Below, in pieces: positions 34,070-40,878 of a stretch of DNA of 64,000 nt (positions are counted from its first letter, which is position 1; each line of letters starts with the position of its first letter). Location of the stretch: positions 2,514,035 to 2,578,034 of the forward strand of contig NZ_AP018933.1 in NCBI RefSeq assembly GCF_003610015.1, written 5' to 3'. The notes below the pieces were generated by a model. That model saw only the letters and a list, made by a program, of their open reading frames with translations, made no database searches and was not told the origin of the DNA. A program made the position numbers and the translations under genes. This stretch comes from Zymobacter palmae (GTDB lineage: Bacteria; Pseudomonadota; Gammaproteobacteria; Pseudomonadales; Halomonadaceae).

Positions 34070-34189
34070 ATGCGTATCAATGTACTGTCCACAGCTGCCA
34101 TCGCGGCTGCGATGGGCCACTGCTCGGTAACACTGACCCACGGCGCAGTCGCCGACAGTCTGTCCAGTACAACAGGAGATTTGCCATGA
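34070..34189 (+). CDS. Possible 39-residue leader peptide upstream of manC
   Basis: A short frame starting MRINVLSTAAIAAAMGHC ends in a TGA that overlaps the manC ATG by four bases (ATGA), the geometry of translational coupling. The N-terminus is weakly signal-peptide-like. No good ribosome-binding site is seen before its ATG, though CAGGAG near its 3' end would serve manC. It may be a chance frame. Confidence 0.25.
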   Translation: MRINVLSTAAIAAAMGHCSVTLTHGAVADSLSSTTGDLP

Positions 34190-35619
34190 CGACCACTTCT
34201 CTCTACCCCATCATTCTAGCCGGGGGCACAGGCAGCCTCCTGTGGCCACTGTCGCGTGCGCAGCACCCGAAGCAGTTCCTGTGCCTTGATGGGCAGTACA
34301 CCATGTTGCAAGATGCCGTGCGCCGCCTTGACGGGCTGCAGCACAAGGCGCCTATCATCGTCTGCAACGAACAATACCGTTTCATCGTCGCCGACCAGCT
34401 GCTGCAGTTGCCCTCGCAAGCCTATGACATTCTGCTTGAACCTGCTCGGCGCAATACGGCACCGTCAATCGCGCTGGCCGCCTTCGACGCCCTGCGCCGC
34501 GAACCGGAGGGTGACCCTCTGCTGCTGGTGCTGGCCGCCGACCATGTAATCCGTGATACCGCCGCTTTCCAGCGCAGCGTCCAACACGCCATTCCGTTGG
34601 CCGAAGCGGGACGCCTAGTGACGTTCGGTACCGTGCCTGAACGCCCGGAAACCGGCTATGGCTACATTCGTCGCGGCAAGCCGCTGAGCGAACCGGACGC
34701 GTTCGACGTCGATCGCTTCGTCGAAAAACCCGACAGCACAGATGCCGAAGCCTACGTCAGCAGCGGCGACTACTACTGGAATAGCGGAATGTTCCTATTC
34801 CGCGCCCGCCGCTATTTGGAAGCCCTACAAACGCACCGCCCCGACATCTACGAAGCTTGTGAAACGGCCATGCAGAGCCTGACCCAAGGTGAGGATTTCG
34901 AGCGAGTCGACAGCGACGCCTTCAAACAGTGCCCCGCTGAATCCATCGACTATGCAGTGATGGAACAGACCAGCGATGCGGCGGTGGTGGCAATGGACGC
35001 GGGCTGGAGCGATGTTGGTTCATGGGATTCGCTGTGGGACATCAAACCTCACGATGCCAATGGCAACGCCACCCACGGCGATGTCATCAGCTTCGATACG
35101 CATGACAGCTACATTCGTTCAGAATCCGCGCTGGTCGCCACGCTGGGCGTGAAGGATCTGATCGTCGTGCAGACCAAGGATGCCGTACTGATCGCTGATC
35201 GCCATCACGCTCAGGATGTGCGCAAGGTCGTCGCCGAGCTGGAACGCACTGGCCGTCGCGAGCAGGAGACGCAGCTAGAAGTGTTCCGTCCGTGGGGCAA
35301 GTACGCCTCCATCGACGAAGGCAAACGCTATCTGGTCAAGCGCATCACCGTGAAACCGGGGGCACAGCTGTCGCTGCAGATGCACCATCACCGTGCCGAG
35401 CACTGGATCGTCGTCACAGGAACGGCACGCGTGGTGCTTGAAAACGAAAGCCATCTGTTGAGCGAGAACGAATCCATCTATATCCCGCTGGGCCAGACCC
35501 ATCGTCTGGAAAACCCGGGCAAGATTCCGCTCGAACTGATCGAAGTCAGCTCTGGCGCCTATATCGGCGAAGACGACATCGTGCGCTTCGAAGACCACTA
35601 CGGACGGACGTCACGCTAA
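34186..35619 (+). CDS. manC: Mannose-1-phosphate guanylyltransferase / mannose-6-phosphate isomerase
   Basis: This 477-residue bifunctional AlgA/ManC/XanB-type enzyme makes GDP-mannose. The N-terminal nucleotidyltransferase domain (about 1-340) begins YPIILAGGTGSLLWPLSRAQHPKQFL, with FVEKPD near residue 182 and YYWNSGMFLFRA near 199. The C-terminal cupin isomerase domain has FRPWGKYASIDEGKRYLVKR and LSLQMHHHRAEHWIVVTGTA, with zinc-ligand histidines near residue 403. One oddity: the GSRLWP motif, whose arginine helps bind GTP, is GSLLWP here (Leu18). CAGGAG precedes the ATG. It is the first main gene of a five-gene run, and its TAA overlaps the next ATG by one base. It supplies the sugar donor for that locus. 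Confidence 0.92.
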   Translation: MTTTSLYPIILAGGTGSLLWPLSRAQHPKQFLCLDGQYTMLQDAVRRLDGLQHKAPIIVCNEQYRFIVADQLLQLPSQAYDILLEPARRNTAPSIALAAFDALRREPEGDPLLLVLAADHVIRDTAAFQRSVQHAIPLAEAGRLVTFGTVPERPETGYGYIRRGKPLSEPDAFDVDRFVEKPDSTDAEAYVSSGDYYWNSGMFLFRARRYLEALQTHRPDIYEACETAMQSLTQGEDFERVDSDAFKQCPAESIDYAVMEQTSDAAVVAMDAGWSDVGSWDSLWDIKPHDANGNATHGDVISFDTHDSYIRSESALVATLGVKDLIVVQTKDAVLIADRHHAQDVRKVVAELERTGRREQETQLEVFRPWGKYASIDEGKRYLVKRITVKPGAQLSLQMHHHRAEHWIVVTGTARVVLENESHLLSENESIYIPLGQTHRLENPGKIPLELIEVSSGAYIGEDDIVRFEDHYGRTSR

Positions 35620-39946: not shown

Positions 39947-40878
39947 CGCTGTGCTGGTGTGCCAGCGCAGCGGCCATGTGGACAGGGGCTAACGTCAAGA
40001 CCTCTCCGGCCGTGCCTTGGGGCAGCGATGCCGCCATGCAGTCATTACAGCAGCTGGCGGATGCTGGCGCCGAGCAGGCCCTGCTGGTAGCGTTCGCATG
40101 GCAGCCCGATGTCTCAAGCAACGCCCCCGCGCTAGGCAGCGACAGCGATCCCGAGCGAGTGCGCGCTGGTCTGCGTCAGATGAGGCAGGCAGGCCTGTCG
40201 CCTATTCTCAAGGTGCATGTCTGGATACCCAACCACTGGGCGGGCGATGCCAAACCCACTGATATTGACCAGTGGTTTACCGCTTATCAGGCCGCACTGA
40301 TACCGCTGTTGGACATTGCAGAACAGGAACACGCTTCGGCTGTGGTGCTGGGCACCGAGCTGCGCCAGCTTGAGCACAGCGCTCACTGGCCCGCTCTGGC
40401 GACTCTCGCCCGCCAGCACTACAGTGGCAAGCTGGTGTATGTGACCGACAGTTTGGCCCAAGCGGAAGCGTTCCCGTGGTGGTCTTCCTTCGACATCATC
40501 GGCACCAGCCTCTACCCCTCTCTGCCGGAAGACCGCCAGCAGCGCCAGACCACGATGGACAATGCCGCACAACGACTGGCGGCGCTGGGACAGCGCCAGC
40601 AGCGTCCGGTGTGGGCCGCCGAGATCGGCCTGCGCTCTTGCACCACCAGCCTGGCTAAACCGTGGGAAAGCCCCGAACAGTGCAGCGGCCACGTCGCGGA
40701 ACACCTGCAATTTGACGTACTGCGTCAGTGGCAGCACACCCTCGCGGCACACGGCATCGACGGCATGGCGATCTGGTGCTGGTATACCGACCCAAGCGTC
40801 GGCGGCGAACAGGACTCTGACTTTACTGTTCAGGGTAAGGATGCCGAACGCCTGTTCAAGGCCGTCTCACCCAGATAA
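39895..40878 (+). CDS. GH113-like glycoside hydrolase (TIM barrel), exported
   Basis: This 327-residue protein has a signal-peptide-like N-terminus (RRVQRAVRATAAALTLCWCASAAA). Its TIM-barrel domain resembles GH113 endo-beta-mannanases: TGANVKTSPAVPWGS at the start, LKVHVWIPNHWAGD near residue 105, the acid/base candidate in VVLGTELRQLEH near 148, GTSLYP near 203 and the nucleophile candidate in VWAAEIGLRSC near 243. Such hydrolases in polymer operons trim or release the chain. With manC in the same operon it hints at a mannose-containing polymer. The ATG at 39895 is used, as the longer frame from 39838 lies inside the preceding gene. The family call is by motif only. Confidence 0.7.
   Translation: MGKRRVQRAVRATAAALTLCWCASAAAMWTGANVKTSPAVPWGSDAAMQSLQQLADAGAEQALLVAFAWQPDVSSNAPALGSDSDPERVRAGLRQMRQAGLSPILKVHVWIPNHWAGDAKPTDIDQWFTAYQAALIPLLDIAEQEHASAVVLGTELRQLEHSAHWPALATLARQHYSGKLVYVTDSLAQAEAFPWWSSFDIIGTSLYPSLPEDRQQRQTTMDNAAQRLAALGQRQQRPVWAAEIGLRSCTTSLAKPWESPEQCSGHVAEHLQFDVLRQWQHTLAAHGIDGMAIWCWYTDPSVGGEQDSDFTVQGKDAERLFKAVSPR

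Follow-up and report, generated by a model that had tools for sequence, protein, structure and literature searches.

A manC-headed xagABCD operon of Zymobacter palmae as a candidate c-di-GMP-controlled machine for a beta-1,4-mannan or glucomannan

In a 64,000-nucleotide stretch of Zymobacter palmae (the window; NZ_AP018933.1 of assembly GCF_003610015.1, forward-strand positions 2,514,035-2,578,034), five genes, all on the plus strand, fill positions 34186-40878 and encode ManC, a barrel protein, a glycosyltransferase of family 2 (GT2), a 509-amino-acid protein and a hydrolase; we refer to the last four as xagA to xagD, after the Xanthomonas operon. A preliminary description of this locus, made from the sequence alone, had reported five tightly packed genes with overlaps of 1, 71 and 52 bases, which are present as described. 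manC (34186..35619) encodes a bifunctional mannose-1-phosphate guanylyltransferase/mannose-6-phosphate isomerase for GDP-mannose supply; its product matched TIGR01479 at 728.6 bits (cut-off 373), with PF00483, PF01050 and PF22640 also above cut-off. It overlaps by 1 base the xagA-like gene (35619..36527), whose product is a predicted outer-membrane beta-barrel and appears by eye to carry a signal peptide. xagB (36538..38487) encodes a GT2 polysaccharide synthase (PF13632, 72.6 bits; PF13641, 68.7 bits; cut-off 27) with an N-terminal MshEN domain, in which a predicted motif for binding cyclic di-GMP (c-di-GMP) spans 36625..36783. Its start is most likely the ATG at 36538, 10 bases past the stop of the barrel gene, rather than the listed GTG at 36490. 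xagC (38417..39946) shares 71 bases with xagB and encodes the 509-amino-acid polytopic protein. xagD (39895..40878), counted from the ATG at 39895, overlaps xagC by 52 bases and encodes a probably exported enzyme of glycoside hydrolase family 113 (GH113), the beta-1,4-mannanase family (PF22612, 91.8-92.1 bits; cut-off 27). The identities previously proposed for manC, the GT2 gene and the GH113-like gene were thus confirmed by profiles above cut-off, whereas XagA and XagC of the window matched no Pfam or NCBIfam family at an E-value of 0.1.

To place the operon, XagB was aligned with six other orthologues from 369 genomes of the class, and the alignment was used to scan bacterial and archaeal species genomes. 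The TED and QxxRW motifs were invariant in all seven aligned sequences. Among the relatives kept, identity to the window XagB was 63-66% in Xanthomonas, 62-63% in Pseudomonas/Halopseudomonas and 60% in Gluconacetobacter diazotrophicus; in the iron bacteria it was 55-57% for Mariprofundus and other Mariprofundaceae and 53% for Ferriphaselus R-1. A quick tree of 73 of the 84 rows (11 near-relatives dropped) placed the window XagB in a starred clade (99) of 13 members together with Xanthomonas, Pseudomonas and the Acetobacteraceae Gluconacetobacter and Nguyenibacter. All 13 members have xagA before xagB and xagD after xagC, and in the window xagA, xagC and xagD likewise flank xagB in the xagABCD order. 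The best-matching relatives showed identities of 42-45% for XagA, 31-33% for XagC and 56-60% for XagD. The Xanthomonas and iron-bacterial genes were equated with the published xag and sfz/sfb genes by their genus, strain names (PV-1, R-1) and set of genes (PMC3609779, PMC4643136, PMC8250860). Judged by sequence and gene order, the window operon is an orthologue of the known xagABCD biofilm operon of Xanthomonas with manC added, not a new system. A search with XagB over 97 genomes of relatives gave 36 matches, full length in the window's own genome and partial in the other 35, and revealed no orthologue in the 60 genomes of the same family; the operon therefore appears patchy and may have been acquired horizontally.

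We surveyed the neighbourhood of xagB in 84 distinct loci, comprising the window, 80 loci from the XagB scan and L041-L043 (L039, L040 and L044 were dropped as lying on the same contigs as L063, L067 and L069). The 80 loci are the best of 523 relatives, a choice that favours close ones, and some of their contigs stop within the flank. XagC accompanied XagB in 81 loci, XagA in 68, a BcsB-like gene in 66 and the GH113 protein XagD in 50, but manC in only eight, so the co-occurrence expected of the five genes held for the xag genes and much less for manC. No BcsB-like gene adjoins the operon of the window, 13 of the 14 Xanthomonas loci or four other loci. That the window genome might encode a BcsB partner elsewhere was excluded by a whole-genome search with PF03170, which gave no match. 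In 35 loci, a cluster of related open reading frames follows xagC; the one member scanned (L087:13317-14324) is a response-regulator GGDEF gene. A second family of open reading frames is shared by 18 loci, and one member of this family is a histidine kinase; this suggests a dedicated local source of c-di-GMP. Another family, of large open reading frames, follows xagA in 18 loci (including L043, L070, L071 and L077), and its member in L043 matches CotH kinase.

The eight loci with manC beside or near xagB are the window, two of Niveispirillum, four of Mariprofundaceae and one of an Acetobacteraceae metagenome-assembled genome; in L121, manC is cut by the contig end. In three more Mariprofundus loci, manC lies near xagB by coordinates, on or beyond the border of the stretch retrieved (L077, with its GH113 gene on the same numbered contig; L071 and L079, with the contig assumed). 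The seven cases among the 80 scanned loci, from three lineages, compare with about 0.5 by chance, by our estimate of about one manC per 4-Mb genome. On the Geobacillus stearothermophilus plasmid CP128455.1 (L125, 4564-11301), genes for a ManC-like protein, BcsB, XagB with MshEN and a GT39-annotated protein lie in a row; the ManC-like gene reached 241 bits with TIGR01479, below the cut-off of 373, and the GT39-annotated gene 25.2 bits with PMT_2, below that of 26.1. This plasmid is typed as conjugative, and its host is Gram-positive. Because manC was found near xagB in unrelated lineages and in the Geobacillus block, it is an occasional but recurrent partner of xagB. A galU-like gene was found in none of the 84 loci (about 1.57 Mb in 80 of them); in whole genomes, searched for 50 of the 80 loci, galU and ManC were each matched in 47.

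The predicted structures of XagA and XagC agreed with the barrel protein and the polytopic protein with a soluble tail that had been proposed from the sequence. XagA, at best 45% identical to the fetched XagA relatives, was modelled as a beta-barrel (predicted local distance difference test score, pLDDT, 89.3). In a Foldseek search its best match was the COG4313 channel 4RL8 (E 5.8e-11), followed by the amyloid exporter FapF, fitting an outer-membrane exit pore; Pfam assigned Phenol_MetA_deg to 6 of 48 XagA relatives. The XagC model (pLDDT 90.0), built on 59 of 64 rows after the plasmid sequence and four short ones had been removed, showed a GT-C fold with a small C-terminal periplasmic domain. 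The model matched by Foldseek at E 1.2e-5 and superimposed on ArnT (5F15) with Z 20.1 and a root-mean-square deviation of 5.1 A over 394 residues, and on fungal protein O-mannosyltransferases with Z 16-18.5. A comparison of XagC with PDB sequences gave nothing significant, and PMT_2 was matched by 1 of 64 relatives. GT-C enzymes are expected to carry a catalytic acidic residue in the first periplasmic loop. Of the 59 rows, 35 have an acidic residue at the aligned position or beside it; the window XagC has Gly there, and three Xanthomonas rows (L048, L055 and L088), which lack that loop, have a gap. Because this residue is missing in the window and in the three Xanthomonas rows, XagC is possibly non-catalytic, and in this branch it may be a partner rather than an enzyme; we assign it to GT-C by the modelled fold, not as an enzyme.

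All 37 XagD relatives scanned matched GH113, and few matched other hydrolase families, weakly. E155 and E243 of XagD are invariant in these 37 relatives. Both align with Glu in 5YLH, the structure of a GH113 beta-mannanase, and the sister entry 5YLI carries Ala at one of the two positions; we take the two residues of 5YLH to be the GH113 catalytic pair. Periplasmic hydrolases of the cellulose and alginate systems are specific for their own polymer. With XagD belonging to the mannanase family GH113, such specificity would make a beta-1,4-(gluco)mannan the likely Xag polymer. Two GH113 enzymes with predicted signal peptides, AAM39996.1 of X. campestris and AJZ27962.1 of X. citri, were reported to be endo-acting on beta-1,4-mannans (PMC9032380, 2022), and AJZ27962.1 showed 9.39 U/mg with konjac glucomannan, 4.73 with linear mannan, 4.14 with carob galactomannan and 0.89 with guar. 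The words xag and xanthan are absent from the main text of that paper. All 11 other Xanthomonas genomes that we searched have a single GH113 gene, which sits at the xag coordinates and has an open frame as long as that of XagD, and from this the assayed enzymes would be XagD itself. Considering also that manC lies near xagB in unrelated lineages and galU in no locus, a beta-1,4-mannan or glucomannan is most likely the Xag polymer.

Several points weigh against this assignment. The identity of the assayed enzymes with XagD was derived from the 11 other genomes, not from AAM39996.1 and AJZ27962.1 themselves; in PMC9032380, the heading of the activity table swaps the clade labels relative to the text (the text agrees with the AJZ27962.1 values), and a Clade 2 GH113 enzyme from Phenylobacterium was inactive. 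GH113 was missing from the fetched stretch of 34 of the 84 loci and from 6 of 26 whole genomes, all six alphaproteobacterial; therefore, either the hydrolase is dispensable or the polymers differ in these six. Most loci have no manC near xagB (8 of 84 do), and 3 of the 50 genomes had no ManC match. In X. oryzae pv. oryzicola, total exopolysaccharide (EPS, mostly xanthan) was not much altered when xagA or xagB was deleted, and only deletion of gumD cut it greatly (PMC3609779). Biofilm itself does involve xag in print: either deletion reduced the raised biofilm of an X. oryzae pv. oryzicola rpfG mutant (PMC3609779), and in X. campestris, xag was described as required for biofilm (PMC3528676). 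The main alternative is a Xag-type, c-di-GMP-controlled operon that makes something other than a beta-mannan, for example a beta-glucan or a mixed polymer, with the mannanase activity of XagD being incidental and manC serving other glycans. The inconstancy of GH113 and manC over the xag loci, the common BcsB-like partner (66 of 84 loci) and the nearest solved relatives of XagB, which are mostly cellulose synthases, speak for such a polymer. The GH113 match in every XagD relative scanned, the preference of the X. citri enzyme for glucomannan and mannan, and the lack of a galU-like gene in the loci speak against it, and we regard it as unlikely, though the most serious of the alternatives.

The assignment of a mannan-type polymer is accompanied by a predicted control by c-di-GMP. 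The paired RLGD motifs and their N-terminal position, recognized in the preliminary description, were borne out by profiles: XagB matched the c-di-GMP motif NF053729 at 47 bits (cut-off 38) and, over the stretch past this motif, PF05157 at 41.9 bits (cut-off 23.1). The motif comprises 53 residues, two 24-residue RLG motifs joined by a 5-residue linker, as in the definition given with the MshE structure, from which the contact residues were also taken (PMC5013675). Read against MshE in the 649-residue numbering, the first motif of XagB keeps R30, L31, G32, D33, L46, L50 and Q53 (the Q32 equivalent), and the second keeps R59, L60, G61, D62 and L79; D129 corresponds to Asp108 of MshE. Most ligand-contact residues are thus kept, but F75 replaces Leu54, H82 replaces Gln61, and both turn glycines are substituted (N39 for G18 and R68 for G47).

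The genome of the window shows few signs of c-di-GMP signalling. It has one GGDEF match (G000:C1:2492759-2493226; L132 2757-4091, minus strand), which lies outside the window and follows pgaC and pgaD, with an intact GGDEF sequence; whole-genome profile searches gave no EAL or HD_5 match. By comparison, the number of GGDEF matches in 24 genomes of the same family had a median of 27 (range 0-72). A candidate PilZ effector was rejected, as the lone match (23.1 bits, cut-off 22.5) lies inside an open reading frame that looks RNase II-like by eye; we take this match as spurious. In a search with PF05157 only, the genome yielded two proteins; the second is a GspE/PilB-like ATPase without a match to NF053729, so XagB alone matched both profiles. 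Because the one GGDEF gene stands beside pgaC-pgaD and neither EAL, HD_5 nor a credible PilZ was found, the c-di-GMP of this organism appears linked to two exopolysaccharides, poly-N-acetylglucosamine (PNAG) and Xag.

The same scarcity would fit a genome that has all but given up c-di-GMP signalling and a MshEN domain that has lost c-di-GMP binding, leaving XagB constitutive or controlled solely by transcription. Some MshEN domains have lost binding (PMC5013675), and the substitutions at Gln61 and at both turn glycines point in this direction. On the other side, NF053729 scored above its cut-off, both Arg, Gly and Asp pairs are kept together with the equivalents of Q32 and D108, and the first-motif Arg persists in the window XagB although it occurs in only 12 of the 84 rows. 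We consider loss of binding improbable; from its residues, XagB is likely but not certain to bind c-di-GMP.

From the gene identities, the orthology to xag, the conservation and the folds of the models established here, we infer the identity of the polymer, the binding of c-di-GMP and the roles of XagA and XagC. The manC-headed xagABCD operon would be a synthase-dependent exopolysaccharide machine, probably for a beta-1,4-mannan or glucomannan under c-di-GMP control, a reading that we hold somewhat above even weight. ManC would supply GDP-mannose; XagB would polymerise the chain and extrude it across the inner membrane, being switched on when c-di-GMP is bound to the N-terminal MshEN domain. 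From the periplasmic side, XagC may decorate the chain, or it may act as a non-catalytic partner; XagA would form the outer-membrane exit, and XagD may trim the chain in the periplasm. BcsZ is the periplasmic hydrolase that trims cellulose, and XagD would be its counterpart here. A degradative mannan-utilisation cluster, suggested by the probably exported GH113 enzyme, is scarcely credible beside a GT2 synthase with TED and QxxRW, an adjoining manC, five genes without a transporter or second hydrolase, and orthologues that contribute to Xanthomonas biofilm. The overall interpretation in the preliminary description, a switched, possibly mannose-containing polymer, is supported, with mannose favoured by the manC linkage and the published activity of Xanthomonas GH113.

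Two questions were posed in 2012, the identity of the Xag polymer and that of the natural substrate of ManA, a mannanase that disperses biofilm (PMC3528676), and a 2019 review stated that the nature of the polymer remained to be established (PMC8042644). Among the publications that literature searches on xag, mannan, GH113, biofilm, c-di-GMP and glucomannan listed, none named it, judged by title and the start of the abstract. With its synthase, GDP-mannose enzyme and mannanase-family hydrolase encoded together, the operon offers one candidate answer to both questions. We tentatively propose, at slightly less than even weight, that an MshEN-gated GT2 makes a beta-1,4-(gluco)mannan which is the Xag polymer and, by homology, perhaps also the organic twisted-stalk matrix of iron bacteria, that XagD is the cognate trimmer of this chain, that the secreted ManA disperses Xanthomonas biofilm by acting on it, and that the window organism has the system at its smallest. 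If true, c-di-GMP-controlled bacterial mannan synthases would form a class represented in plant-associated bacteria, in iron oxidisers and on one Geobacillus plasmid, and the chemistry of the stalk would become a question of enzyme digestion. The operon type itself was already known; what is new is the proposed Xag product and the minimal c-di-GMP setting.

A promoter scan gave two promoter-like sites, both on the minus strand (3.1 expected), and 10 terminators (5.5 expected). Downstream lies a gene for a YadA-type trimeric autotransporter (41267-42649) with three copies of a 105-bp repeat at 41757-42069; a perfect 7-bp tandem repeat of 24.7 copies (42645-42817), which could vary in length, overlaps the end of this gene.

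Among known systems, the cellulose synthase BcsAB is a processive GT2 enzyme under c-di-GMP control via PilZ, with the periplasmic GH8 hydrolase BcsZ. The window system shares the processive GT2 type, the predicted c-di-GMP control and a putative cognate periplasmic hydrolase, but has MshEN for PilZ, GH113 for GH8 and no BcsB match in the genome. The rhizobial glucomannan of gmsA, a bacterial surface polymer, resembles the proposed Xag chain, a likeness by description only. NfrAB of E. coli also has a GT2 fused to MshEN (PMC8669469, PMC8669472), but MshEN is C-terminal in NfrB (NCBIfam profile position 480-582 of 723) and N-terminal in XagB. Since, in addition, no neighbour matched the NfrA family in Pfam or NCBIfam, membership in NfrAB was rejected; the partner genes, previously said to differ from nfrA, do differ, but they form the known xagABCD set, which had gone unrecognized. 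The sfz/sfb twisted-stalk clusters of Mariprofundus and Ferriphaselus (PMC8250860, PMC4643136) contain homologues of XagB, XagC and XagD. They differ in having a BcsB-like gene before xagB and, in Mariprofundus, the barrel gene after xagD, followed by a CotH-kinase-like gene; manC lies about 10-13 kb away in several Mariprofundus, whereas in the window it adjoins the xag genes. Sfz4 was called GH10 in print, but the PV-1 homologue (L077) matched GH113 in our analysis. Closest is xagABCD of Xanthomonas (PMC3609779, PMC3528676), with orthologous XagA-D in the same order, a XagB of the MshEN-GT2 type and no adjoining BcsB-like gene (13 of 14 Xanthomonas loci). There, xag is under rpf/DSF (diffusible signal factor) control via the HD-GYP protein RpfG, whereas the window genome has only one GGDEF match and lacks EAL and HD_5 matches; the window operon is, unlike that of Xanthomonas, headed by manC.

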